Shown here one piece after another: positions 1 through 20,900 of a stretch of DNA of 25,538 nt; the first letter of the stretch is position 1, and each line of letters starts with the position of its first letter. The notes beneath the pieces were generated by a model. The model was not told where the DNA came from. It ran no database searches and saw only the letters and a list, made by a program, of their open reading frames with translations. Source of the stretch: a virus; the IMG/VR virus record IMGVR_UViG_3300024344_002827, positions 1 to 25,538 of that record; one strand, written 5' to 3'. Made by a program: the position numbers and the translations under genes.

Positions 1-2314
1 CGCCTTCTACGCTGCCCTCGAACCAGACGATCCCGCCGAAGTTGCCGTATCCGGTCACGCCAGAAACCAGGATGTCGCGCGCTGCGCTCGTTCGGAACAG
101 CGAGGTGCCTACGTCGTTTCCGACGAGTTGAATGTCTCGTAGCACTCCGCCGGGAGCGCCCTGAAAGTTGAACAGGCTATCGCCCGCGTTCTGGATGAAC
201 TGATCGGATTCCATCTTGAACCCGTAGGCGAAGGCCGCTTTGACGAGCGAATCCGAGCCCGTGAGCCAACCCGACCAGACGTTATTCTCGAACCACCACC
301 CACTCGCATCGGTTCCGAGCCCGCGCCCATTCGCGATGAAACTGTCCTTGATGCCACAGTTCATACACGCCACGGCGCCGTCGATTCCAGAAAACGCAAG
401 AGTCGACGCGGCCGTCCCGCCGCCCCCGAAGTAGAGGGCGAGATCCTCGACCCTCCCCCCGTAGCCCTGGCTGAGCGACATCAGCTCGACCTGGTCGCAA
501 CCCGATCCGTCGCTCTCCAGACTCGTTGCCAACTCGTCGGCGCCGCACTCGGCATCGAGGTTCGGACTGTCGCGGCCGGCCCACTGCGCGGGCATGATCG
601 TCATGTGACGGAAGCCGCTGCCGAAGTTATTGAACTCGTCCTGCGTCAGAACGTGCGCGTTGTTCACGCTAGGCGAAGTCGCGAGATTGAAGTCCTGGCG
701 CGTCATGAAGTCGTAGACCGAGCCGCCAACGATCGGGTCGTCCGGATCCTGATTCCGAACGTACCGGCCATTCCCTCCGTCGCAGGTAGATCCGTGCATC
801 GAGCCCAGCTCTGTGAAGGCGTACTCGCTGGTCCCAGTGACCTCGTTGCTCGTCCCATACGTCGCCACAGGTCGCGCCTGGTGCCCGAGATAGACCTTCT
901 CGCCCGCCTGCAAAAGATCCTCGACCGCGTCGGCCACGCCGATGCAGTCACCCAGGGCGCCGGGGCAGCCCCCCGTGGTGTCACCCGTTCGCGTCTCGTC
1001 GTTCACGGTACATTTGACCCGCGTATTCCCGGAGCAGACGGAGAGGCGATTGTCGACGCAAACGACGGGCTGGCTTCCGAGGTACTCGTAGCTGGCACGA
1101 ACCACGTCGACCACCTGCCCGATCGGCGTCACTTCGATCCGGTCGCGTACATTCGTCACCGTAGATGTCGTCGTCACACACCCCGTCGTGCTGTTCGACG
1201 GCCACGCGCAATACTGCTCGGACCCTTTCGCCCCGACCGAAAGTCCCCAATGACCGCCCGTATTCGTCCCGGCAAACGTCGCTCCGCCCGTGATGTTCAC
1301 CCAAGCGCCCGCCGTGACGGGCGGATATCCGTCAGCAATCCCGCCTGACAGGTTGATGTCGTTGCCGTGGTCGCTCAGCCAAACGGTGCCTTGACGGCCA
1401 TCCTGAATCCCGGTCTTGTCCGACCCCTCGCCGACGACGTAGCGCCCGCCGTAGCTGGTGAACTTCTTCTGCGCGACATAGGGATGGTCGCGCGTGACGG
1501 GACACCCGTTCGCGACCTGGCTCGACGACTGGCCGCAATAGGCGTCGTGATAGATGCCGCGGGGGAGATAGACCGGACCTCCCTGCTTCACCTGATCTAA
1601 GGCAATGGCGAGGTCCGGCCCCGCATACATCTTGATCCGCTCAGTCCCGTCAAGACACGCGCCCTGCTCGTAGGTATTGGGCGAGCCGCCGTCCTCAGCC
1701 GTGCCGAAGCCATCGGAAGTGCAGTCCATGTACCACGAGTTGCCTCCCGCGGTCGTCGGCGTGTCGTAACTGCTGACCCCGTTGGCGTCGACGCCGCCCT
1801 TCTCGGCCGTCCAGTTGTAGTTGCCGCAGGTCCACTCGTAGCGCTGGGTGTTCGAGTCGTAGCCGCCGCCCTTGGTCGTTCCAGAGCGGCATTGATCGAA
1901 AGGGCTGCTTCCGCTTCCACCCCCCGCCATCTCCAGGTTCGAGCACCAGACCTCCATCACCGTGCCGTTCGACGCGGTGGTGGCGATCGCCTTCGCCAAC
2001 CCTTGTCCGGGCAGGAACGGTGTAGTTGCGGTCGACACCGCCGAGAACGAGCCCACAAGCGAGCCCGAGGCTGCTGCGGTCGCCGCGGTGGGCACCTGGT
2101 AAAGCGCCACCGTTCCCGACCCGCCATAGGTCGTCACACGCACCGAACACGAGGGGCCGAGGCCGAACTCTTTCGACTGGTCCGTGCTCGTATCGAACTT
2201 GACCGTGTGAACCCGCCAGCCGTCGGGACTGATCGCCGACGAGACGGTCGGGGCGGCGTAGACGGGAAGCGCCCACGACACGGCCATGACCATTGCAACA
2301 AGAAAATTTCGCAC
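1..2314 (-). CDS. Signal-peptide-bearing, Cys-rich beta-helix spike-like protein (3' end off the window)
   Basis: The frame starting at GTG 2314 stays open to base 1, so this is the first 771 residues of a longer gene. GTG is chosen because GGAGG lies 8 bases upstream and the preceding stop codon ends one base before it. The N-terminus (MRNFLVAMVMAVSWALPVYA) is a textbook Sec signal: Arg, a hydrophobic core, then an AxA-like cleavage site. Residues about 238-252 (LDQVKQGGPVYLPRG) resemble the entry into pectate-lyase-like right-handed beta-helices of phage tailspikes. The last 150 residues are Gly/Asn-rich with short strand-like repeats. About 20 cysteines are spread along the chain, many in a segment near residues 430-490. 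By position (last of the tail genes) it should be a spike or receptor-binding/depolymerase protein. The signal peptide is unusual for a virion protein, and a secreted enzyme is the alternative. The reading frame is secure; the function is inferred. Confidence 0.8.
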   Translation of the reverse strand, partial: MRNFLVAMVMAVSWALPVYAAPTVSSAISPDGWRVHTVKFDTSTDQSKEFGLGPSCSVRVTTYGGSGTVALYQVPTAATAAASGSLVGSFSAVSTATTPFLPGQGLAKAIATTASNGTVMEVWCSNLEMAGGGSGSSPFDQCRSGTTKGGGYDSNTQRYEWTCGNYNWTAEKGGVDANGVSSYDTPTTAGGNSWYMDCTSDGFGTAEDGGSPNTYEQGACLDGTERIKMYAGPDLAIALDQVKQGGPVYLPRGIYHDAYCGQSSSQVANGCPVTRDHPYVAQKKFTSYGGRYVVGEGSDKTGIQDGRQGTVWLSDHGNDINLSGGIADGYPPVTAGAWVNITGGATFAGTNTGGHWGLSVGAKGSEQYCAWPSNSTTGCVTTTSTVTNVRDRIEVTPIGQVVDVVRASYEYLGSQPVVCVDNRLSVCSGNTRVKCTVNDETRTGDTTGGCPGALGDCIGVADAVEDLLQAGEKVYLGHQARPVATYGTSNEVTGTSEYAFTELGSMHGSTCDGGNGRYVRNQDPDDPIVGGSVYDFMTRQDFNLATSPSVNNAHVLTQDEFNNFGSGFRHMTIMPAQWAGRDSPNLDAECGADELATSLESDGSGCDQVELMSLSQGYGGRVEDLALYFGGGGTAASTLAFSGIDGAVACMNCGIKDSFIANGRGLGTDASGWWFENNVWSGWLTGSDSLVKAAFAYGFKMESDQFIQNAGDSLFNFQGAPGGVLRDIQLVGNDVGTSLFRTSAARDILVSGVTGYGNFGGIVWFEGSVEG

Positions 2315-2315
2315 C

Positions 2316-4415
2316 CTAAAGCCCTCCATTCCTGTCGGCCTGCGCCGTGCCACGACCGGCAGCCCGGGTGGCTCTGTCTGCCATCGACGCGCGCGACGAC
2401 ATCAAATTCCATTCAACGATCCACCGAGCCACTGCTCGGTCATCGTCCGACTTCATCATCCGAACAAACAGTTCGGGATCCTTGAGCATCTCGCGCAGCA
2501 CGAGCGCAACATTGCGATTGCTCTTCACATCTCGCTCGAGCATCCGACGGATGCCCTTACGCGCAGTGGACTGCACCGGGTCGATCGCTGCTTCTGCCGT
2601 AGAAAAAAGCGCCTCGACAAACGGGTTGACGTTGCTGCCCGTCTGGAACGCCGCTCCGGGCGTACCCGCACTCGTCCGCTTCGATACCTGAATCTTCCGA
2701 ACGAGCTTCTCGAACTCGCCCAACGCTTCTTCACCGAAAACCTCGGTGTACACGTTTCGGTTCTTACGCAGTTCGACAAGCACGCTCCGAGGAGTGACCC
2801 TCGAGAGATCATCTCCGAAGACGTGCTCCGTGAAGACCGCGCGAAGGTTAGTGAGCCCCTCTCCATCGGGAGCGTTCGAGAAGAAGCCCACGGCCTTCCG
2901 CGCCTCGGCAGCAGGATCCTTCGCGCCCAGGATCTTCCGCACCGCCCGATGCGATTGCGACATCTCGCTGAATGCCACCACATAGGGAGAGTCCGGGGCG
3001 AGCAGATCCTTGTTCCGCTTCGTCACAGACAGCGCGTGGCGGTAAGCAGCGCTCCCGGCGTCCTCTGGCAACTCGTCGAGCTCACGGTTCAGCGCCTTGA
3101 GGATGGGATCGAGGTTGTTCGCTTTGAATTGCGACACCTCACCGCCACGCCTTGCCACACGATTCGTCATGAGCGCGTTGCTGCGAATCCCCTGAAACTG
3201 ATCGAGCGTGATCTGATCCGGAAGGGCGCGAATCACACGTACCTCGTCGGGCACTCGCGCATCGAAACCAGCAGCGCGATTTTCTGCCATGTCCGCCGAG
3301 GCCTTCATACGGCGCGTGTCGATGATGATCGACTCACCGGGCAGGACGCGGGACCATGCGAGTTGCTCCTCGGCGTCGAGCAGTTGCTCTATCTCGTCGA
3401 AATTCCGCTTCGCCCCGTCCATTCCGCCGTTCGGAAGCAATCGATCGAGCTGCTCCTGGAGATCGGCCTGCACGACCTTTCGGATGCCATCCATGTCGGC
3501 CGAAAAATCCGTGTCATTCGACGCAAGGCTCTTCTGCATCGACGAGAGATTCTGATTCCCCTCATCACCGAGAGCAGCAACCGTCCCCGGTCGGGCGTCG
3601 GGATCGGGGAAGTCCCGAATGACCTCCTCGACCTCCTCGACCGCACGATCGAGAACCCGCTCGCCGCCCGCCGGATCACGTCCCATACGGCGCTTCGCTT
3701 CCGAAATCGCCTTGGAAACGTCCTCAACATCAAGCCCATAATCCTTCGCGATACGTGCTGCCGTCTCAGTCGGGACCGTATCAACGGCATCGTTGGCGGG
3801 ATCCTGCATCATCTCCGCGACCGCACGGCCCCGAACTCGTCGAACACCACGAGCTGTCTGCTTCGCTCCACGACGAGACACGGTGCTCACGGCAACGCCG
3901 GGCGTCATTGCCGCAGTGAGGATTTCGACACCAACCGCAGTGGCCTCGCTGGAATCCGACGCTCGAGCAACCGAGCCTGCGGTGACAGCAAGAAGATCCG
4001 AGCCGACCTCGAACGCCAATCCTACCGGACCCCGAGCGGCGACTGCCACAGGGGAACTCATTGCCACGAACGGAAGGCTGCGCCCAATGTGTTCGCCAAA
4101 CTTCCCGGCGAACGTCTCAGGCGGCAGGATGTCGGCCGTCAGGAACGAGTTGTCGCGCAGGAGCGGTCCTTGAAAGTTCGGACGAGGGCCCGTGAGTCGC
4201 TCGCGGAGTTCTTCGGCTCCCGCACCGAGGGGTCGCCCCAACCCGAGCTCAGCCATCGACTGAACGTCAGCCGGGAACTGGACGAGCCCACGACGAACGC
4301 CCTGACCGAGATCAGAGAGTGATCCCGTCTCGCCGTCCGGACGCGCCTTTCGGGCGAGGTCGGGACCGGCGCGCTTCGCGTCGAGTGCGGCCTGAATTTC
4401 CTTCAGAGACGCCAT
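2316..4415 (-). CDS. Large internal virion (DNA ejection-type) protein, 699 aa
   Basis: ATG 4415 is chosen because it overlaps the upstream stop by one base (TGATG) and has GGGAGG 6 bases upstream. A further in-frame extension into the previous gene is not needed. The protein is long and mostly helical and charged, with small Ala/Gly/Val-rich patches at about residues 105-190 (for example AMSSPVAVAARGPVGLAFEV) that could contact membrane. No catalytic motif such as a lysozyme or transglycosylase signature was recognised. It is the third of three consecutive helical proteins between the fibre and the spike, the place where podoviruses encode proteins ejected with the DNA. The role is inferred from position, size and composition, not from a recognised domain. 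Confidence 0.65.
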   Translation of the reverse strand: MASLKEIQAALDAKRAGPDLARKARPDGETGSLSDLGQGVRRGLVQFPADVQSMAELGLGRPLGAGAEELRERLTGPRPNFQGPLLRDNSFLTADILPPETFAGKFGEHIGRSLPFVAMSSPVAVAARGPVGLAFEVGSDLLAVTAGSVARASDSSEATAVGVEILTAAMTPGVAVSTVSRRGAKQTARGVRRVRGRAVAEMMQDPANDAVDTVPTETAARIAKDYGLDVEDVSKAISEAKRRMGRDPAGGERVLDRAVEEVEEVIRDFPDPDARPGTVAALGDEGNQNLSSMQKSLASNDTDFSADMDGIRKVVQADLQEQLDRLLPNGGMDGAKRNFDEIEQLLDAEEQLAWSRVLPGESIIIDTRRMKASADMAENRAAGFDARVPDEVRVIRALPDQITLDQFQGIRSNALMTNRVARRGGEVSQFKANNLDPILKALNRELDELPEDAGSAAYRHALSVTKRNKDLLAPDSPYVVAFSEMSQSHRAVRKILGAKDPAAEARKAVGFFSNAPDGEGLTNLRAVFTEHVFGDDLSRVTPRSVLVELRKNRNVYTEVFGEEALGEFEKLVRKIQVSKRTSAGTPGAAFQTGSNVNPFVEALFSTAEAAIDPVQSTARKGIRRMLERDVKSNRNVALVLREMLKDPELFVRMMKSDDDRAVARWIVEWNLMSSRASMADRATRAAGRGTAQADRNGGL

Positions 4416-5626
4416 CAGCCGCCTCCCGCGCCCATGAGTTCCCACACCTGGGCAGCCTGTGCACCCGTAACATCGTCCTCAGGAACGCCGAACAGAACCG
4501 ACGCACGCCGATTGATCTCCGCCACGTCACCCTCGGTGGGTGCCGGCGGGCCATTACGCTCACCAACTCGCTTACGGAGGCGCTTCACCGCACGGCTAAG
4601 CGGCATCGCTCGATTCTTCTCTCGTTCGCTCCAGCCCTGCCGGTCGGCGAAGTCCTCGATGTCCGACATCTTGTCGGCGAACTCAATGTCACGCTCCTCG
4701 AGGATCCGTCCAAAACTGCCCCCGAGTTGCTGAAGCATCTCGCCGGGAATCTTGCCGCCAGCGTCGAGAAAGCCCTTGGCCTTCGACGTGAGTTCCTCGA
4801 ACCCGCTGGCTCCGAAGAACCGAACGAGCTCGATGTCGCCCTCTCGCACCGTGGCACCCTCATCCACGTTCCGAACCCAGCGCTGGATGACCTCGAGCAC
4901 GTCGAGCGGGGTGCCACTCTTGTTGAGCTTGTCGAGTGCAGCCCAATCCTGATTCAGCTTCGGAACCGTCGCGAGGCGCTTCGCCTGCGTCTTGCGGTAG
5001 CCATCGAGATCCTTACCCGACCACTTTCCATCGTTCGCCGCTGCGCGCTCCTCGGCCGCGATTACACGCCTTTCAGCACGCGCTTCCCTCTTTCGTTCCC
5101 CGATCGCCTTGAGTTCTGCCTGGAACTCGGCTTCCTCTCTTGCGATTTGACGCTGCCTCTCAGTGAGGTCGACGTGGGCGTCTGCATCACCCATAACGGC
5201 CGAGAAAGATCGACCCGACGCAAGATGAGGCCGAAGGCGCTCAGCCAACGCCTGTTGCGCGTTCGCACCTCGCCGGAATGACTTCGGCGCGTCCTGTGCG
5301 ATCAAGTTCGTGAACGCATCCGACTCTTCTCCGCCACCGGGGATCGTTACATCTGACGGAGTCAGTTCGGATTCCGCGTGTTCACGCGCTGTCGCCACGC
5401 CCTCAATCAGCGCATCCCCTTTGGCCTGAAGATCCGCGCGCTTGAGAAACATCTCGATCTCATGCTTCTCCGACTCGCGGCGGAACCTTTCCGCGTCCTG
5501 CGCCGCCTTCACGCGCCCCAACGCAAGATTCTGCTTATCGCGTTCCTCCTGCTGCCTCAATCGGCGAATCGTGAGAAACATCTGGAGGGGATCCGGTCCC
5601 GGATTTTTCACACCCTGAAAGGGCAT
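4415..5626 (-). CDS. Coiled-coil internal virion-like protein, 403 aa
   Basis: The start is ATG 5626 (MPFQGVKNPG) with AGAGG 6 bases upstream; a GTG one codon earlier is less likely. Residues about 18-70 and 150-215 are dense in Glu, Arg, Lys, Gln and Ala with heptad-like spacing, which predicts long coiled coils. The rest is also helical. There are no membrane segments, cysteine clusters or recognised enzyme motifs. The gene sits 9 bases after a Gly/Ala-rich protein and is joined by TGATG to the 699-residue protein, so the three probably act together. An internal core or ejection protein is the best reading, based on order and composition only. Confidence 0.6.
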   Translation of the reverse strand: MPFQGVKNPGPDPLQMFLTIRRLRQQEERDKQNLALGRVKAAQDAERFRRESEKHEIEMFLKRADLQAKGDALIEGVATAREHAESELTPSDVTIPGGGEESDAFTNLIAQDAPKSFRRGANAQQALAERLRPHLASGRSFSAVMGDADAHVDLTERQRQIAREEAEFQAELKAIGERKREARAERRVIAAEERAAANDGKWSGKDLDGYRKTQAKRLATVPKLNQDWAALDKLNKSGTPLDVLEVIQRWVRNVDEGATVREGDIELVRFFGASGFEELTSKAKGFLDAGGKIPGEMLQQLGGSFGRILEERDIEFADKMSDIEDFADRQGWSEREKNRAMPLSRAVKRLRKRVGERNGPPAPTEGDVAEINRRASVLFGVPEDDVTGAQAAQVWELMGAGGG

Positions 5627-6696: not shown

Positions 6697-8121
6697 CTAG
6701 ATCCTTTCCACTCGAAGTCGAGAACGCGAGATCGTCTGAATGGACGAGTTGCTTCCCGCGCTCGCCGTGCCCTGCGCCGTGACCACCACCAGGGGGTGCA
6801 GCCGCGGCGCGCTACCGATGCCACTCGCACTATCCGCCGCGGTTGCCTGCGGAGTGAACGTGTAGGTGAGCCCCGGCGTCGGATTGTCGACGATGTGCGT
6901 CATGCGGAGCACAGAAACACCATTCGTCTCACCGAGGCCCACGTCGTCGTCGGCCTCGATATAGGGACCGTCGACAACAGAAGTGGAGCCATCATCCTGC
7001 TCGAGCCGGAAGGCGAAGAAGAACTGCTGCGAGTTCAAAACCGAAGCCCACGCCACGCTCACCTCGTAGATGAGTCGGTAGCCATGACCGGGGATGTACT
7101 GCGTCAACGCCAGGCCCGGGATGTCCGTCCATTGCGTATCCCAATCAGTCCCCGAAGCCACTGTGGCGGGAACATTCGTCACCTCCGCCGAGACGCTTGC
7201 CGCCTGCGATGGGATGTCCGGAATCGGATTCGGGAAGTCGTCGTTCAACTCGAAAAACCACGCCTGCACGAGATTGAAGTCCGACGTACCCGATGTCGCC
7301 TCGATCCGGCACACGATGTCGGTTGCGGAAGCATCCGACTTGACAATCATCGAGGCGACCTGAACACCACCCGAAGAACTATCAGTGACAGTGGGATTCT
7401 GATAGTCGCCCGTCCCGAGTCCGCCTGTCGTAGAAAACGCCAGCGTGCCCGATGTACGTATGTACTTGACAGCGAAGAGATACTTGGTGGAGGACCTCAG
7501 TCCTTGGATCGTTTGACTGATTCCTTCGTTCGTCGCGTTTGTTGTGACCGCCAGAGAGCGCTTATGGCCACCTGTGATGACGAACGCAGCCGCCTCGATC
7601 GCAGTGGTTCCGAGCGTGCCAATCTCGGTCCAACCATCCGGGGGATCACCTGTGGATCCCGAGAGAAGTTCGAATCCAGAGTTCTTTAGCAGGTTGGGGC
7701 CTTGGATCGGAGGCTCTGTCCAAGCGGTTCCAACGAACGCGCCAGACGAGTTGTAGTACCCGGTACTCGACCGATACTGGTTGTTTGCCTCGATTCGATA
7801 GCGAAGGCGCTCGAGTTCGCCCTCCAAATTCGTAGCCAAGTTCGAAGACAAGTTGGCCGAATCACCCGGGGTCGTCACCGTCGCGGCAATCGTCGCGTTG
7901 TCCGAGTGATCGGATACTTTCGTGCCGTCGATCTCAACGAGCATCGAGTTGGCTATCTGCGTCGAGGCGTTCAAATTCGTCTGGTCGATGTTCCCGTTCG
8001 CCCAGGTCTTGATCGCATTGAAGTCGCCCTGAAGTTCGGCAGCGGGAAGGGTATTCCCCTCGACGTATTCGGCTGTGCCGTCGCCTGAAACCGTCTTGTT
8101 AGGGTAAGAAAGCGTGCTCAT
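6697..8121 (-). CDS. Tail fibre-like protein with carbohydrate-binding-type modules, 474 aa
   Basis: The start ATG 8121 overlaps the upstream stop by one base (TAATG) with GAGG 7 bases upstream. Residues 1-100 have the simple Thr/Asn/Ala-rich makeup of fibre attachment and shaft regions (for example AAELQGDFNAIKTWANGNID), followed by a short helical stretch near 98-112. From about residue 140 (NLLKNSGFE, then PPDGWTEIG) the sequence resembles beta-sandwich carbohydrate-binding modules of the CBM4/9 type. A second all-beta region fills the C-terminal half. It follows the beta-propeller tail gene directly. A host-surface-binding fibre is likely; a non-adsorbing minor virion protein is the alternative. 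Confidence 0.6.
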   Translation of the reverse strand: MSTLSYPNKTVSGDGTAEYVEGNTLPAAELQGDFNAIKTWANGNIDQTNLNASTQIANSMLVEIDGTKVSDHSDNATIAATVTTPGDSANLSSNLATNLEGELERLRYRIEANNQYRSSTGYYNSSGAFVGTAWTEPPIQGPNLLKNSGFELLSGSTGDPPDGWTEIGTLGTTAIEAAAFVITGGHKRSLAVTTNATNEGISQTIQGLRSSTKYLFAVKYIRTSGTLAFSTTGGLGTGDYQNPTVTDSSSGGVQVASMIVKSDASATDIVCRIEATSGTSDFNLVQAWFFELNDDFPNPIPDIPSQAASVSAEVTNVPATVASGTDWDTQWTDIPGLALTQYIPGHGYRLIYEVSVAWASVLNSQQFFFAFRLEQDDGSTSVVDGPYIEADDDVGLGETNGVSVLRMTHIVDNPTPGLTYTFTPQATAADSASGIGSAPRLHPLVVVTAQGTASAGSNSSIQTISRSRLRVERI

Positions 8122-9818
8122 TACGCCGCCTCGATAGAGATGCCGTTGCCAGCAACATTCTGTGAAATTTGCCCAATGAAGAACGGCTCATTTGCGCCGT
8201 TGTGTGTGAAGCGATGCGAAAGCGTGAATCCCTCGCCAAATCCGTCCACGCGCGCACGCGTCAAATTGAAATCGCCACCGAGCGTACCCGCTCCCGAGAG
8301 GTTTCCCGCCGCGTTATCCATCGTAGAAGCACCCGATAAATTACCCGCTGCGTTGTCGAGCACGAACCCGGGGAGCGCCACAGTCAACGACTTCTGGAAG
8401 GCCGACTTCCGCCCGTCGTCCGTCACGACCGAGATCGAAGGCATGTAGGACCCCGAGCCACCGACCATTAGCCACGTATCGCCGATCGCTTTCGACGACA
8501 TCGGGAAGCCCACGTCTTCGTCTCGACCGCGGAATGCAACCGCGATCGAATTGCCGAGATCGGAGTACGTCGAGCGGTTGAACGGCGCAACTTCACCGCC
8601 CTGCCCGCCAAGATAGATCCGCGGCGTGCCTTGAGGATCGCGACCCGGGATGATGCAATTCGGTGCCACCACACCACTCGGGATCGGCCAATTGTACCAG
8701 CGCACCGTGTCGGGAGAAAGTTGAGTGACGCCCTTGATGTCCATCGCGAGCAAGAGGTTGAGCGACGTGCTCGAACCCGTCGCTACGGCGAACACCACGA
8801 GCCCCTCTTCGGGCCAGTAGGCACCATAGGCCCGTCCCATCATCGAGCGATTCAACGTCTCCCACGTCTTGCGAATCGGCCACGAGAGGAAGTTGTTCTC
8901 ACGGTTGCCGAACTGCTGAGAGAGCGCCATCGAATGGATCCCGTGCTCGCTCATATAGATCGCGTCGCCCTGGTCGAGTCCTAGATCCACGAACGCATTC
9001 TGGCTGACGCAACCCGTCGCGATGGCGTCAGTCAGGATGAACCGACTCGCGTTGTTGTACACCGAGGGATTCAATCGAAACGAAAGAATCCGCCGGTTCG
9101 TCAGGAACAGCAGGAAGTCGCCTGAGTTGTCCTGGTACGAGCCGAAGCCGGTGTTGAACTCGTTGCCGTAAGAGCCGCCACCCGAGTTCTCTCCTAGATT
9201 CTGTCCGGGGATCGTGTTCGAGTTGGGCCACGAGAGCGGATCCGTCGCATCTGCAGCGTAGTCGGCGTAGCGCGCAACAAGCGGGTTATTCCACGGGTCG
9301 GTGCCGTCGAAGAAACCGCCCAGGAAGATCGTGTCGAACTTCTGGAACACGAACTGCGGCTTCGCGTTGACACCGCCAAACAGCGTCGTGAGCCGCGCTG
9401 TAGCGCTACCTGATCCATCCCATGACCAAACCGTGTCGCCGGAGGACCCGCCCGCTGCCCACAGATTATTCTGATACGAGGCAAACGTCCATGTGTTCGC
9501 GGCACCGCTCGTGATGGTCGTGCCCGACTGAGTAACCGTCGTTGTGTCGTCGGTGTAGATTGCACCGCCTGCGACGACGACCATTTTCCGATTCTCGTCA
9601 CGCCCGTTGCGGTACTCGTAGATTCCCTGCACGGCAGGCGTGCCGCTGATATTGGCGTCGTACTCCGTATCGCGAACGAGCCCCGGCCGTGTCCCCGTCA
9701 GGTTCCCCAGACGGCAACAATTCGTCGCCTCGCGAAGCTGATTCGGAGCCAGCGCAACCGGGTTCTCGTCTTCGTTGAGTCCCGCATAGGAGTTGATCGT
9801 GTACGACTGGTACGGCAT
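8121..9818 (-). CDS. Beta-propeller tail protein, tail-tubular-B/stabilisation-like, 565 aa
   Basis: ATG 9818 is chosen because it shares one base with the upstream stop (TAATG); there is no clear Shine-Dalgarno, which suggests coupled translation. The N-terminus (MPYQSYTINSYAGLNEDENP, then LREATNCCRLG) matches the start of phage proteins that line or plug the tail below the adaptor, such as P22 gp10-like and T7 gp12-like proteins. The body is made of repeated beta segments with Gly-Gly turns and Trp (VVAGGAIYTD, NLWAAGGSSGDTVWSWDGSG), as in WD-like propellers. Near residues 500-525 a 13-residue unit (DNAAGNLSGASTM) occurs twice in tandem. It lies after the adaptor and before the fibre, as expected for a tail hub component. 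Confidence 0.65.
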   Translation of the reverse strand: MPYQSYTINSYAGLNEDENPVALAPNQLREATNCCRLGNLTGTRPGLVRDTEYDANISGTPAVQGIYEYRNGRDENRKMVVVAGGAIYTDDTTTVTQSGTTITSGAANTWTFASYQNNLWAAGGSSGDTVWSWDGSGSATARLTTLFGGVNAKPQFVFQKFDTIFLGGFFDGTDPWNNPLVARYADYAADATDPLSWPNSNTIPGQNLGENSGGGSYGNEFNTGFGSYQDNSGDFLLFLTNRRILSFRLNPSVYNNASRFILTDAIATGCVSQNAFVDLGLDQGDAIYMSEHGIHSMALSQQFGNRENNFLSWPIRKTWETLNRSMMGRAYGAYWPEEGLVVFAVATGSSTSLNLLLAMDIKGVTQLSPDTVRWYNWPIPSGVVAPNCIIPGRDPQGTPRIYLGGQGGEVAPFNRSTYSDLGNSIAVAFRGRDEDVGFPMSSKAIGDTWLMVGGSGSYMPSISVVTDDGRKSAFQKSLTVALPGFVLDNAAGNLSGASTMDNAAGNLSGAGTLGGDFNLTRARVDGFGEGFTLSHRFTHNGANEPFFIGQISQNVAGNGISIEAA

Positions 9819-10018: not shown

Positions 10019-11017
10019 CTAGCTCCCGATGGTCCGTCCACCGATCAGGCCGTGACGCCATCTAGACCGACCTGCGGATCCATCCCAATTCCCGATTACT
10101 GCGCGTTCGGCGACCTGTCCGCCGTGCGCTTTGTGAACATTGTCGAGTCGCTCCATCGAATCACGACGCAACGCCCTGCCCTCGTCCGTATTTTGGTCGT
10201 AGTTCTGCTGCATGTCGGCCGTGGCAAGATCCACAATCGAATCGACTGCCTCATCCGTCACGCCATCGAGCGTCGAAGTTGCCGTTGTGAGTTCGGGATG
10301 CCGGTACAAATAGTCGACATCGAGAACGTACTCGTCGTCGGGCGGAGGCCACACGATCATTCGAAGCGACGGAATGGGAGCCGAACTTCCAGCGTTATAG
10401 GTCTTGAGGTCGAGCCCACCGACACTGACGGACTTCGGTTCCCCGTACTCGATGTGTTGCTTGGGGAAGAGCTCGGCGAACTCTATTTGTGAGCCGACCT
10501 GTTCAAGCGTCAGCGACTCGTCTTGGTGCGAGACGGTCAGGATACTCCGGATCGTGTCGGCCAGGATGTACTCGCTATAGAAGATTTCCCCTGCCGTGAC
10601 CGAGATCGCCTCCGACACCGCGAACGGAATCGTGACCGTCGATGCGTCCGCAGAAGGCGTACTCGCGGTGAGCACACGAAGTGCCGTATCACCGTACTGC
10701 GACGAACTCGACGGCAGAAAACGCGTGATGAAGTCACCGTAGACATCAGAGGCGGAAAGACCGCTCTTCGAGATCGAGCCAGACGATGCGCCCGACGTAA
10801 ACGTCCCCGCGACCCCCGTGATACGCGCCTTCAGCGCCATCTGCGTGTGCCGCTTGTCAAACTCCCAGACCTTCGCCAGCAACACCTCGCGCATCGCCCG
10901 ATTGATCGCATCGAGCGAAGCAAGATCGCGTAGTTCCGCGAGCGCCGTCACGTCGTCATGACGCATCCGGCGGCGGACCCTGTTCACGAGTTGCAAGGCC
11001 GTCAAGGAAAATGCCAT
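10019..11017 (-). CDS. Head-tail adaptor-like protein, 332 aa
   Basis: The start ATG 11017 overlaps the upstream stop (TAATG) with GAGG 7 bases upstream. The N-terminus (LTALQLVNRVRRRMRHDDVT, then SLDAINRAMREVL) is the helical opening typical of podovirus adaptor or tail-tubular-A-like proteins that sit under the portal. A central region about residues 60-215 is beta-rich, and the C-terminal part (VDSIVDLATADMQQNY) returns to helix. It is followed by a small protein and the beta-propeller tail protein, the order in which adaptor and tail hub genes usually occur. The family call rests on the N-terminal pattern and position. Confidence 0.6.
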   Translation of the reverse strand: MAFSLTALQLVNRVRRRMRHDDVTALAELRDLASLDAINRAMREVLLAKVWEFDKRHTQMALKARITGVAGTFTSGASSGSISKSGLSASDVYGDFITRFLPSSSSQYGDTALRVLTASTPSADASTVTIPFAVSEAISVTAGEIFYSEYILADTIRSILTVSHQDESLTLEQVGSQIEFAELFPKQHIEYGEPKSVSVGGLDLKTYNAGSSAPIPSLRMIVWPPPDDEYVLDVDYLYRHPELTTATSTLDGVTDEAVDSIVDLATADMQQNYDQNTDEGRALRRDSMERLDNVHKAHGGQVAERAVIGNWDGSAGRSRWRHGLIGGRTIGS

Positions 11018-11817
11018 TACGCGGCCTCATCTCCGTCACCGACGGGGTTGCACGCCTCGTCCTTGCAGTGGCGAACGTGTTGGGCCACGTAGCCCGCCTT
11101 CACCCACTTGCCGCACGCGGCCTGCTCCTTGTTCGCGGGCGTGGTCGCGGCCTGTTGCTCTTCGACCGGGACGACGGGCTCGGCCTTCGGTTCGCCATCC
11201 GTCTCGGTCACGGCGACGATCTGATCCTTGCCGATCTGATTCTCGGCGAGCATCACGAGGAGCTGCTCGATCCTCTCCGAGTGGGCGGCCTTCTCGGACT
11301 GCTTGGCCTCGAACTCTTCGACCGGAATCGAATTGCCCTGCTCGTCGACGTAGAACTTCGGCTTGAAGTCACCGGGCTGCCCGGGCTCGAAGTCGATCTC
11401 AATCATGCCCTTCGACGCCGTGAAGTGGTCGGGACGCGCGTTGATGTACCGCGCCACGTTCGGAACCGGCTCGAAGTGCGGGTTCGCGTCCGACGGCATC
11501 ACGAACGAATCGAGATACTGCCGGTACCGCTGCTCGAACTCGGCCTGGTCGATCAGGTGGCCCTGCTCGTCGAGGGCGAGATCAGCACGCTCGGGAAGGC
11601 ATTCGTGCGCCTTCAGGGTACGGCCGCTGCGGAGTAGGTAGGGGCCGTACTCGCCCGTCTGCGGGTCGCGGATCTTCACGTCGAGATCCGTCCCGCTGAA
11701 ATTCTTGCGGAACTGCGGCAGGCGAGGCGTGCCGCGATCCGTCACTTCGACGTTCATCGCCTGCCATCGAGCCTGTTGGGCAACCGCGATATGCTGCGCT
11801 TCGGTGGTGACTTCCAT
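11017..11817 (-). CDS. Unknown head-region protein with Cys/His-containing C-terminus, 266 aa
   Basis: ATG 11817 (MEVTTEAQH) is chosen because AGAGGA stands just upstream; a longer open frame upstream crosses a strong hairpin and the previous gene and is not credible. The N-terminal 180 residues are mixed charged, with phrases such as LDVKIRDPQTGEYGPYLLRS. Then comes a helix (KQSEKAAHSERIEQLLVMLA), a Pro/Val/Glu/Thr-rich linker, and a C-terminal patch with Cys, two His and two more Cys (ACGKWVKAGYVAQHVRHC, then DEAC) that could bind zinc. No family was recognised. It lies between the capsid genes and the adaptor and is joined to the adaptor by TAATG. Confidence 0.65.
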   Translation of the reverse strand: MEVTTEAQHIAVAQQARWQAMNVEVTDRGTPRLPQFRKNFSGTDLDVKIRDPQTGEYGPYLLRSGRTLKAHECLPERADLALDEQGHLIDQAEFEQRYRQYLDSFVMPSDANPHFEPVPNVARYINARPDHFTASKGMIEIDFEPGQPGDFKPKFYVDEQGNSIPVEEFEAKQSEKAAHSERIEQLLVMLAENQIGKDQIVAVTETDGEPKAEPVVPVEEQQAATTPANKEQAACGKWVKAGYVAQHVRHCKDEACNPVGDGDEAA

Positions 11818-12666: not shown

Positions 12667-13704
12667 TTACGCCGTGATTCCGGTCAGCTTGTTGCTGGAC
12701 CGGCGGCTGTCTGTGCAGAGGTTCGCCTCGAAGATCACATGAGCAACGAACGCATCCTGATTCGTCCCGCGCTCCATCGGAGTCAGATCGAACAGGGCAC
12801 CCGGAAGGTGCTTGAGCATCACGCACTCGGTGTCCACGAAGTACATCGTGCCAGACGGGCAGTAGTGGTCATAGAAGATCGGCTTGCGCCGGAACGTCAG
12901 GGCCGTGAACCCGAGATCACCCATGCGGGTGTCCTCGAATCGCACGTTCGGCGTCAGCGAGCCTTCGTAGAACTCGTGAATCGCCGAAGTCGTGAGGACG
13001 GCCTTCGGCCCCGTCGCGCCCTCGGTCGCCCGGTTGTCCGCCTTGCGCATGTCGGAAAGACCCTGCGTGGCGAACGAGCCGGAAGCGAACGAGATCGAAG
13101 CCGGGGCCGTCCCGACATCCGACACGCCTCGGGCATTCCATCCCGTGTACGTGGCACCCGTGTAGCCCTGAAGCGAATCGTTCGCGCTCACGATGCTGTC
13201 CAGCGACGTGACATCGTTCGCACCGCTCGAACTCGCGAGCAACTGCTGAGCGACGTTATCGGCCGCACCAGACACGGCATCGTTCTCCTTGCGGAGCAGG
13301 ATGTTCGCAATCTGCGCCTCGCCGGAGTTCTTCCGGAGAGTCGAGCCGTCGATGACGACCGAGCCCGCACCGAGCTTGAAGTTCGCGCGCGTTCCGCGAT
13401 CGGGATCGCTCGTGTCCATGCTGATCGGAGAGAAGCCCCCCGGAAGCATCTGGAACGACGAGTTCGCACCGAGCTTGACGTTGACGCGGATCGACTCGCC
13501 CGAAACCTGATTCGGGCTGGTCATCGGATCCCCGCTGTCACCAATCCGACCGGAGAGCACGTCTCCGATCTTTCCTGCGAAGAGCGACAACACCGGGTGG
13601 TTGTTGAGATAGTTCTCTTTGATCCCGGGGTGGATGCTCTCGAGCGTGGTGACGAGAAGCTGTCCGTACGTGCGGTTTTCAGCAACCGCGGCAGGAGTAG
13701 TCAT
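12667..13704 (-). CDS. Major capsid protein, 345 aa
   Basis: Start ATG 13704 with GAGG upstream, 11 bases after the scaffold gene. The length is normal for a HK97-fold capsid protein. The N-terminal helix region (NRTYGQLLVTTLESIHPGIK) precedes a Gly/Ser-rich loop and a charged helix near 120-150 (SGEAQIANILLRKENDAV). The C-terminal third contains a segment common in phage capsid proteins: KPIFYDHYCPSGTMYFVD followed by LKHLPG. It is in the standard order portal, scaffold, capsid. It builds the icosahedral shell with help of the scaffold encoded just upstream. Identification comes from order, length and this C-terminal pattern. Confidence 0.8.
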   Translation of the reverse strand: MTTPAAVAENRTYGQLLVTTLESIHPGIKENYLNNHPVLSLFAGKIGDVLSGRIGDSGDPMTSPNQVSGESIRVNVKLGANSSFQMLPGGFSPISMDTSDPDRGTRANFKLGAGSVVIDGSTLRKNSGEAQIANILLRKENDAVSGAADNVAQQLLASSSGANDVTSLDSIVSANDSLQGYTGATYTGWNARGVSDVGTAPASISFASGSFATQGLSDMRKADNRATEGATGPKAVLTTSAIHEFYEGSLTPNVRFEDTRMGDLGFTALTFRRKPIFYDHYCPSGTMYFVDTECVMLKHLPGALFDLTPMERGTNQDAFVAHVIFEANLCTDSRRSSNKLTGITA

Positions 13705-14663: not shown

Positions 14664-14978
14664 CTACTTCCCGAACGAATAAATTCGTCCAAGACCTAGA
14701 TGTGATTCGTTCCTCGCCCCGTGGTGCTTGTCCGAAGACGCACCGAGGGCCAAGTTGTTTTCACGCGCGAACCGGGCGAGTTCGCCTCGACTGCCGAACG
14801 GCTCTTCGCGCAAGTGCGGGTAGTGACGCGGGCCGCCCCACTCGTCCGTGTTCTTGTGCGCCGCCGGCAGAAACGCGATGTCCATCTCCGAGCCGCAGCA
14901 TGAGGGAACGTCGTCGCTCCATCGGTCGCGCTCGAAGGCACCGCACGCCTTGCAGTAGTACGAGTGCATGACGGCCAC
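14664..14978 (-). CDS. Small zinc-ribbon protein, 104 aa
   Basis: GTG 14978 is chosen: AGGAGG is 6 bases upstream, and it overlaps the portal stop by one base (TAGTG); an ATG at 14969 is too far from that site. Cys 9 and 12 (CKAC) with the Cys pair at 27-28 (SCCGSEMD) form a short zinc-ribbon like those in FmdB-type regulatory proteins and in small phage proteins found between portal and scaffold. The rest is hydrophilic, with a Gly/His/Arg-rich segment (HYPHLREEPFGSRGELARFA). The biochemical role is unknown. Position suggests head assembly, but a regulatory role is possible. Confidence 0.65.
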   Translation of the reverse strand: MAVMHSYYCKACGAFERDRWSDDVPSCCGSEMDIAFLPAAHKNTDEWGGPRHYPHLREEPFGSRGELARFARENNLALGASSDKHHGARNESHLGLGRIYSFGK

Positions 14979-16765
14979 TACGCACCTCCTGGGACGGGGC
15001 GAAGACCCGCGCCCACCGCATTCTGCGCGGCGGAGGGAATCGAGTCGCCGGGGCCTTCGCCCTCTTGGCCCTGCGCGTCCTCCGCCATCCGATTGCCCGT
15101 CTGCTCACTGACGACCGCCTGTTGCGGGTCCATGCCCGACAGTTCCGTGATGCGCTCGTGCGCATACCGCTGGGCCACGAGTTGCGACTCAACACCGCCG
15201 AGAGCGTTATATCCGGTGACGAAGCGCGCGAGTTCCGTGTTCGGGTCGGTTCGCAGCGTGCTGTCGAGCTTCACGTCGTACGAGTATTCGCCCTGCAACT
15301 GGTCGACCGTGACCTCGATGAAACCGTTTGCCCGGTCATCGGCGGTCAAGAAGTCGAGGTTCTGCTTGCCGATCACGGGCAGGATGAACGCACGAGCCTG
15401 CTCGCTCTGGAGGAACGTGCGGTGCATGACCGAAGTCACGTTCGCGGCGAACCGCTCGAACCGCTCCTGCGTGCGACCCCGAGCGACCATGCCACCCGCA
15501 GCAATGTTGTTCGCCTCGGCCGCCGTCTCGACATTGGCTCGCTGGCCGCGGTCGAAGTTCGAGACGCCGAGCACCTCGCGGATCTGTTCCTTGATCTGGA
15601 ACGTCAACCCGATCAGTTGCCCGTCGATGGGCGACACGCCGATCTCCTTGATCGCTTGATCCAGGTTGTCGCCCTGAACCTCGAACGCTTCCATGAATGA
15701 CGCGGGATTCCGGATGAGTTCTCGCGTCTCTTCACTGAATGCGTCCTGATTGAGAAACAACAAACGGCGCGTGCGAGAGACGAGTGCGTTGATCGTCGTC
15801 CAGACCTTGTTGTAGAGGAGCTGCTCGTCCCAGAACATGCGCGGGAACGCGATCGGGAACGGCGTGTCTATCTGATCGTTGAACCAGAGGCCCGAATACG
15901 GAAGTTGGCCGTAATTGAACGCCCAGTCTCGCTCCTCTCGGATCAACTTGTCCGAGCCGGGGCTCATGCCGAAGAACTTCCGTTCGTGGGCGTCGTAGAC
16001 GATCCACTCCTCATAGATGCTCATCACATCCGGCGATCCGTGCTCGAGCCGGCCGCTCTGTCGGTCCTTCGGCCGCGTGTCAAAGTGCTTCGTTGCAGTC
16101 AGGTCGCGCCGCTTGATGAGATTCGGGTCGTCCCGGATGTCCTCCTCGTAGTGCGTCGCGTAGAACGCGCACCAGCGAGGCTCCTGCGTCGGGTCGAACG
16201 AGTTCACGAGGGGATCGATCCGGATCTCCCAGGGCCGCATGAACTGCACCCACGGAAGGTCGGGCGTCTGATTCTTGAACCGCGTGATGATCCGGCCGTT
16301 ATCGTTCTCGAACGACACTTCGGGCGTGAACCCGTGACGCACGAACCCGGCACCCGTGATGACCGCAGACAGCAGCGCGCGGTCGACTTCCTTTTTCACG
16401 TCGCGTTCGCGCCACATCAGTTCGACGATCTGCTCGTTGAGCCACGCCTTGCGCCGTGCCGTCTCGTCGGCAGCGGGGCCGCCCAACGGCCGGAGGATCG
16501 GATCGGGGATCTTGGCGCTCAGTTGCGCCGTCATCGTGTTGATGATCGAGAACATGATGTTCCCAAACATCTGGTCAGCCTCTTCCATCGCGCCGTTCAT
16601 GACCCGCGGAAAGTTCCCGCGATAGCCGTTCAGGAAGGACATGGCGCTGTACTTGTCGGCCGAGCCGTCCTTGCCGTCGGGGATCCAACCGACATCGCGC
16701 CACTGGTTCTCGGCGTGCTGCAGCCGTTGCCGCCATCGCTGGAACTCGAGATCGCTCATCGCCAT
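14978..16765 (-). CDS. Portal protein, 595 aa
   Basis: Start ATG 16765 overlaps the terminase stop by one base (TGATG). The size and helical N-terminus with many Trp and Arg (LEFQRWRQRLQHAENQWRDV) followed by LNGYRGNFPRVMNG and NIMFSIINTMTAQL are those of podovirus-type portals. A central region about residues 270-330 mixes beta and helix (FFGMSPGSDKLIREERDWAF), and a long helix near 340-360 could be the channel-lining segment. The C-terminus is Gln/Gly/Pro-rich. The product would form the dodecameric ring that takes in DNA and binds the adaptor. It follows large terminase and precedes scaffold as expected. Confidence 0.85.
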   Translation of the reverse strand: MAMSDLEFQRWRQRLQHAENQWRDVGWIPDGKDGSADKYSAMSFLNGYRGNFPRVMNGAMEEADQMFGNIMFSIINTMTAQLSAKIPDPILRPLGGPAADETARRKAWLNEQIVELMWRERDVKKEVDRALLSAVITGAGFVRHGFTPEVSFENDNGRIITRFKNQTPDLPWVQFMRPWEIRIDPLVNSFDPTQEPRWCAFYATHYEEDIRDDPNLIKRRDLTATKHFDTRPKDRQSGRLEHGSPDVMSIYEEWIVYDAHERKFFGMSPGSDKLIREERDWAFNYGQLPYSGLWFNDQIDTPFPIAFPRMFWDEQLLYNKVWTTINALVSRTRRLLFLNQDAFSEETRELIRNPASFMEAFEVQGDNLDQAIKEIGVSPIDGQLIGLTFQIKEQIREVLGVSNFDRGQRANVETAAEANNIAAGGMVARGRTQERFERFAANVTSVMHRTFLQSEQARAFILPVIGKQNLDFLTADDRANGFIEVTVDQLQGEYSYDVKLDSTLRTDPNTELARFVTGYNALGGVESQLVAQRYAHERITELSGMDPQQAVVSEQTGNRMAEDAQGQEGEGPGDSIPSAAQNAVGAGLRPVPGGA

Positions 16766-20708: not shown

Positions 20709-20900
20709 TCACCCTCCGCCGTTGCAGAATCCCTGCGTCCCAGGGCCATCGGGTTGAATGCATATGCAGCCGCTAGGACATCCGTAGCCCCAGCAGGGCT
20801 GGCCGGTACAGAATCCCTGACACACGGCCGTAGCGGCCGGCATGGTGGTCAGCACGAGCGCCACAAGGGCAAGTAGGGCTAGTCGAGGCTTGTATTTCAT
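20709..20900 (-). CDS. Secreted cysteine-rich peptide with knottin-like Cys pattern, 63 aa
   Basis: The start is ATG 20900; the Shine-Dalgarno is weak. Residues 1-25 are a clear signal peptide: basic MKYKPR, a Leu/Ala/Val core, and cleavage expected after ATA. The mature part is about 38 residues with 7 Cys spaced x3, x4, x4, x3, x1 and x11. The last four (CPSGC-I-C, then QGFCN) closely recall plant squash-inhibitor knottins, which have C-x3-C-x1-C-x5-C with GFC near the end. An 11-base repeat gives QGFC twice. The stop lies 2 bases before the small terminase start, and that gene's ribosome site lies inside this gene, which supports a real gene in an operon. The role is unknown: an enzyme or envelope inhibitor or a toxin-like peptide are guesses. 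Confidence 0.7.
   Translation of the reverse strand: MKYKPRLALLALVALVLTTMPAATAVCQGFCTGQPCWGYGCPSGCICIQPDGPGTQGFCNGGG

Follow-up and report, generated by a model that had tools for sequence, protein, structure and literature searches.

A cysteine-rich, spike-like gene with a predicted Sec-type leader in a podovirus-like late region, and a possible export route for phage spikes

The window, a stretch of 25,538 bases that makes up an entire virus record (G000), reads on its minus strand as a podovirus-like late region. Roles for which no match is cited were assigned from the order of the genes, which runs from a putative small terminase, a terminase-like large subunit, the portal, the capsid protein, an SU10-adaptor-like protein and a putative nozzle protein to a leader-less fibre-like protein, three putative internal proteins with no cysteines and, in the last position, a spike-like gene. 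The following features are referred to below:

14978..16765, minus strand: portal protein, by profile matches (Pfam, PHROGs)
12667..13704, minus strand: major capsid protein, 22-26% identity to eight records including Mx8, Mx9, ppBjS10J-1 and BUCT555
10019..11017, minus strand: SU10-adaptor-like tail protein, match below the Pfam cut-off
6697..8121, minus strand: second fibre-like protein, leader-less, 474 aa, one Cys, fibre role assigned by eye
2316..4445, minus strand: putative internal virion (ejection) protein, 709 aa, no Cys, directly upstream of the spike gene
2322..2327, minus strand: ribosome-binding site GGAGGG, 7 nt before GTG 2314, from the sequence
2..2314, minus strand: spike/fibre-like gene, 771 codons, open frame with its 3' end missing
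2255..2314, minus strand: predicted Sec-type signal peptide, residues 1-20, cut between VYA and AP, by rule-based score
1925..2254, minus strand: N-terminal module, residues 21-130, two Cys, delimited by sequence comparison
1904..1924, minus strand: Gly-Ser linker, residues 131-137, adjoining the start of DNA identity with locus L003
2..1903, minus strand: body, residues 138-771, 18 Cys, from the sequence
1550..1582, minus strand: segment GGPVYLPRGIY, residues 245-255, noted by resemblance, with no family match

The large terminase subunit shows weak matches to annotated terminases (24-26% among the matches listed), while those of the capsid protein include one Bradyrhizobium phage and the Stenotrophomonas phage BUCT555, and the SU10-adaptor-like protein supports a podovirus-like tail. 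The product of 6697..8121 has a weak match (E 0.02) in a family of virion structural proteins, and a search of phages and viral contigs with the putative nozzle protein gave no result. The spike gene directly follows the ejection-type genes in the structural run, the role of these upstream genes being taken from their position; for 2316..4445 the sole match is a weak one to an unknown PHROG. Between the portal and putative scaffold genes, 14664-14978 (minus strand) codes for 104 residues with four Cys, which appear zinc-ribbon-like by eye. A 63-residue frame at 20709-20900 (minus strand), immediately upstream of the small terminase candidate, carries a strong leader (score 8.4) followed by seven Cys, resembling by eye a short knottin-like peptide; no match was found in Pfam or PHROGs and no clear ribosome site was seen.

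The 771 codons of the spike gene reach the end of the record, and since the frame is open to the edge of a record of exactly 25,538 bases, the 3' end of the gene is missing, as the earlier note had recognised. The signal peptide with its own ribosome site that was described there at GTG 2314 is borne out by the GGAGGG motif at a spacing of 7 nt and by a leader composed of a basic start (MRN), the hydrophobic core FLVAMVMAVSWALPV and a cut site between VYA and AP. This leader scores 6.7 with our own rule-based predictor (not SignalP), compared with 5.8-7.9 for the leaders of six E. coli-exported proteins, and it is retained if the alternative start ATG 2329 is used. When starts within 60 codons were tried for 15 non-overlapping window frames of at least 250 aa, the spike frame alone scored 5.5 or more. 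A wider scan took the first start only of 529 frames of at least 120 aa in the window and loci L003-L044, which were partly fetched for carrying such fibre/spike genes; 14 frames scored at least 6.0, of which 11 belong to the fibre/spike-like genes under study, with duplicates counted (Mx8 twice, L004/L005 and L015/L020). The window spike is not among the 14 because its first start, GTG 2353, shifts the core too far in. Shuffling of the 40 N-terminal residues of the spike gave a score of at least 6.5 in 393 of 20,000 cases, so that the leader alone is an event of about 2% for that composition. By itself the leader score constitutes moderate evidence, its recurrence across phages being stronger. 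The frequency of such shuffles, the purely rule-based nature of the call and the failure of GTG 2353 to give a leader by the rule would suit a sequence that is no export signal, being either a hydrophobic N-terminus retained as an anchor of the spike, in tail or membrane, or the product of a misplaced start. This explanation is considered improbable in view of the cysteines, the leaders on other modules and the leader-less homologues treated below.

The estimate of about 20 cysteines made in the earlier note was accurate, with exactly 20 present in 771 residues (2.59%). This represents a 4.6-fold enrichment over the 14 other window genes counted (31/5,496; 0.56%), among which the highest counts are 4/104 (the zinc-ribbon-like protein), 4/227 (11017-11700, part of a frame) and 10/646 (the putative nozzle protein), and it speaks against a mere anchor or misplaced start. 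The leader and the many cysteines would also fit a depolymerase or receptor-trimming protein that leaves the infected cell before lysis and stays free of particles, opening capsule or slime for the burst or stripping receptors to keep progeny off debris, and the other, leader-less fibre-like gene of the window could then supply the virion fibre. No enzyme family, however, was matched by the window spike in Pfam and profile searches. For the beta-helix-like fold previously proposed no confirmation was obtained: searches of Pfam, PHROGs, NCBIfam, the PDB and phages with the spike protein (P0001) returned no useful match, and its structure models reached a pLDDT of 31, with no more than low-confidence strands in the N-terminal region. 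Matches to 'Pizza' entries of the PDB, which are designed repeat proteins, extended over about 20 residues and were rejected as spurious. The GGPVYLPRGIY segment is one that we take to resemble the start of pectate-lyase-like tailspike helices. No match was found in genome contigs for P0001 and alignment A2, or in viral contigs for the N-terminal module.

The sole relative found for the body lies on IMG/VR contig 3300024344_000188 (L001/L003). Their DNA is 94% identical over 686 nt from nucleotide 387 of the spike gene (residue 129), starting beside the Gly-Ser linker and extending to near the contig end, and residues 136-358 are identical to L001 at 216 of 223 positions (97%), with six of six Cys kept. 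Upstream of nucleotide 387 nothing significant aligns with L003, and the N-terminal module of L001 is unrelated to that of the window, with hhalign pairing just 22 junction columns at a probability of 25%. The L001 module also opens with a leader, which is different from that of the window and reads MKRFLSLWLAILIAAPFPVMA up to a cut before AD. In a comparison of 13 window genes with the collected loci (tblastn, E 1e-3), the only matches were of the spike with L001/L003 and of the capsid protein with L006-L012; the remaining 12 genes besides the spike had no match in the 9.1 kb of L001/L003, and the window portal had none in the records of three relatives, which are fragments. For the neighbours of the L001/L003 gene, matches were obtained to families of internal virion proteins (E 1e-48 and 3e-5) and to one of tail proteins, indicating a podovirus-like contig with the gene in the same slot, and the fibre/spike slot is firmer here than in the window. 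One body is hence found on two unrelated N-terminal modules, each with a predicted leader; the module would be the part that binds the tail.

The L001 module recurs in L005/L004 (52% in the best segment, 47% over the whole), where it has a predicted leader and ribosome site and stands in front of another body, for which the Pfam match to a beta-helix entry (E 3e-4) is weak and falls below the cut-off. Two of the module's Cys are kept in both L001 and L005, and the complete L005/L004 chain contains 23 Cys, 22 of them after the leader. In L005 the best cut by the rule is at residue 15, while an SYA-D end at 24/25 was read by eye. A relation between the window module and the L001/L005 module was not detected, phages searched with the L001 and L005 spikes gave no result, and the second L005 gene and alignment A2 as queries produced no additional loci. 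That unrelated modules bear different leaders, with AxA-type ends and mostly with a ribosome site, counts against the absence of an export signal. A free enzyme, moreover, needs no phage-specific N-terminal module, and module and body are shuffled here as in virion spikes. Close downstream of the first, and truncated where the contig stops, L005 has a second leader-bearing gene (7305-7679), with a mature start similar to the W..GD.L...DL..I motif seen in presumed fibres. In L004, 1205-1588 codes for a small protein inside the phage structural run that is presumably GroES-like.

Homologues lacking the leader would, according to the earlier note, tell against export. Both the body relative in L001 and the module relative in L004/L005 keep a leader, and leader-less homologues occur in a separate, Mx8-type family, where they start at about the cut. 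In the stretches from seven distant relatives (L006-L012), two frames of at least 250 aa score as leaders, both in Mx8; one is an antisense artefact and the other is p64. A leader is also seen in its partner in Mx9, p14, which is annotated as a putative tail fiber. A DNA pattern for the N-terminal domain of Mx8 p64 identified 18 loci in IMG/VR, five of which have a leader (Mx8, L015, L020, L019 and, more weakly, L026). As the L015 and L020 fibres are near-identical (341/347) and L023 is apparently Mx8 itself, these five rows amount to four lineages. The remaining 13 are leader-less, L021 and L022 having been so classed since their candidates scored 4.3 and 4.2, below 5.5; in all but one of the 13 (12 loci) the frame leaves space for no more than about seven residues before the domain, the exception being L027, likewise scored leader-less, with space for about 20. 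L026 is leader-bearing by score, but the cut predicted at residue 19 does not coincide with the AxA adjoining the domain, and its fibre is separated from the next upstream gene by some 600 bases that include a frame on the opposite strand. That frame (1041-1637, plus strand) has an inner start, MRKLLLAAL, and may code for another exported protein.

The predicted mature starts in Mx8, L015/L020 and L019 are TRNS, TRNS and SRNS, respectively, and align with leader-less starts such as MPRNSSGTY, the match in L019 requiring a cut between ALA and S, two residues after that of the rule. Leader-less homologues therefore begin approximately at the predicted cut, which fits the export of an otherwise ordinary fibre. 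That the leader is in this family the stretch missing from the leader-less homologues argues against a retained anchor or misplaced start, and its occurrence before fibre N-terminal domains argues against a free enzyme. Between Mx8 and Mx9 the leader shows no differences in 84 nt, followed by 59 in the next 600, while between L015 and L020 there is one difference in the 81 nt of the leader and 13 in 900. Mature chains contain 0.87 Cys per 100 residues when leader-bearing and 0.36 when leader-less, in a sample that is small and includes two near-duplicates and three cut genes. With another pattern, representing presumed fibre N-termini, a leader was seen at none of 13 loci, making export an exception among phages. 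Like the window spike, Mx8 p64/Mx9 p14 and the L015/L020, L019 and L026 proteins have a Sec-type leader ahead of a fibre-like protein, but they differ in their N-terminal domain family and in having two to four Cys per mature chain. No sequence relation between these fibres and the window spike was seen, and the window genes gave no match to the Mx8-type domain, ISSxxxN...DI..E.T.S.DR (tblastn, E 1e-3).

Several of these loci hold further genes of interest. In L019 a leader-less pectate-lyase-like spike (Pfam E 4e-10) comes after the leader-bearing fibre, while in L014 a leader-less fibre is followed by one small gene and then by a leader-bearing fibre-like protein (8208-9521; 438 residues, eight Cys, no family match). 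Directly behind the leader-bearing fibre of L015, 8997-9392 (minus strand) codes for a Tlde1-domain protein (Pfam E 3e-9), perhaps a cell-wall enzyme. At least two leader-scoring proteins of 678 and 165 aa, with no convincing family match, are encoded near a leader-less fibre-like gene in L040 (6778-9310, minus strand).

Mx8 p64 does not carry the virion protein label given to p56 and p57, and both it and Mx9 p14 stand apart from the main structural run, as might be expected of a fibre on the surface of an infected cell or lysogen that serves exclusion or adhesion. The model for such a fibre is provided by the MAT fibres of Bdellovibrio bacteriovorus, which have a signal peptide, a beta-rich domain of about 130 residues (placed like residues 21-130 of the window protein) and swapped fibre tips, a similarity of layout as far as the source was available (PMC10769870). 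MAT fibres are, however, chromosomal cell-surface proteins of a predator, whereas the window and L001 genes lie within a phage structural run. The leader-bearing genes of L015/L020 and L019 directly follow long same-direction genes with no or one Cys, which by their place look like internal proteins at the end of the structural run, although the genes preceding the leader-bearing fibres of L015, L019 and L026 have no family match. No S74 domain is found in the window record. Display on the cell surface is accordingly judged a distinctly improbable role for the window protein.

Tailspikes and fibres of the P22 and T7 type occupy the same slot after putative internal virion proteins and are built of an N-terminal virion module with a portable body, a plan that the modularity seen between the window spike and that of L001 would match. 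They are usually cytoplasmic and leader-less, though not by definition, and the window spike departs from them in its predicted Sec-type leader and its 20 Cys. The P22 tailspike lacks a leader and has about eight Cys. Filamentous phages are assembled at the membrane and are not tailed phages. Their G3p, as described in the accessible part of PMC8310372, is a virion receptor-binding protein with a signal sequence. In the available portions of other reports, a depolymerase is predicted to have no leader (PMC12004950), and signal peptides are stated to be absent from phage genes, yet are named elsewhere in the same source for an endolysin and a holin (PMC12989515). Sec-exported and SAR endolysins are also phage late proteins on the Sec route, but they are lysis enzymes rather than virion parts, and the phage use of Sec covered in the accessible text of a review concerns endolysins and lysis control (PMC6116005).

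Two further proteins, each known from part of its source, lend some weight to a free enzyme. Xanthomonas phage PBR31 gp40, likened here by its description, combines a signal peptide with likeness to tail-associated hydrolases, but is an esterase adjoining putative spanins; the authors suggest that gp40 may aid lysis (PMC10975493). WceF of Pantoea stewartii is likewise exported and has a tailspike-like fold, but differs in its Tat leader, its origin as a bacterial biofilm gene and its lack of a phage module (PMC7949094). Weighed against the shuffled modules and the leaders before fibre domains, a free enzyme is rather unlikely, if the most credible of the alternatives. No report of a Sec-leader fibre or spike of a tailed phage was found in the open-access PMC literature, as far as the sources were available, PBR31 gp40 being the nearest.

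The reading preferred here, with a probability of roughly 50%, is that the spike of a short-tailed phage leaves the cytoplasm via Sec, folds and oxidises outside it and docks at or after lysis, since this best joins the leader, the cysteines, the slot, the phage-specific module, the portable body and the leader-less homologues. Judging from the sequence, Sec would export the spike and signal peptidase would cut between VYA and AP, upon which the Cys-rich chain would fold and form disulfides in the periplasm while capsids and tail hubs are assembled in the cytoplasm. The finished spike would be attached to the tail at or after lysis by its phage-specific N-terminal module, and the portable body would then bind or cut the surface of the next host. 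A more general scheme, held somewhat tentatively, is a two-compartment assembly in which hub and capsid would be made in the cytoplasm and spikes, via Sec, in the oxidising periplasm, to be joined only at lysis, with the leader travelling with the docking module so that swapped-in bodies would be exported. According to the PhiGT1 paper, as far as its text was accessible, fibres within a phage group rarely exchange their N-terminal domains, presumably because these bind the tail hub, while C-terminal ones are swapped (PMC10386132). Against an exported spike stand the window module, for which no homology to known docking domains was detected, the missing virion label of Mx8 p64, its location and that of Mx9 p14 outside the main structural run, the 13 leader-less loci of the second fibre pattern, the unmatched genes preceding the L015, L019 and L026 fibres, the suggested lysis role of PBR31 gp40 and the shuffles that reach the leader score. 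Of the two readings offered in the earlier note, an exported depolymerase and an unusual route of spike assembly, the comparison favours the second because the module differs between phages, the body is portable and predicted leaders precede fibre domains that are elsewhere leader-less.

Assembly of tailed-phage particles is generally assumed to take place in the cytoplasm. The sequences compared here suggest that some phages may produce one component of the particle outside it and add this at a late stage. If so, phages could make use of disulfide-rich binding bodies, host factors for secretion and oxidation would become assembly factors, and co-infecting phages could exchange spikes. In the annotation of fibres, the absence of a signal peptide would be an unsafe rule, and the cultured phage Mx8 makes the idea of an exported fibre testable now.
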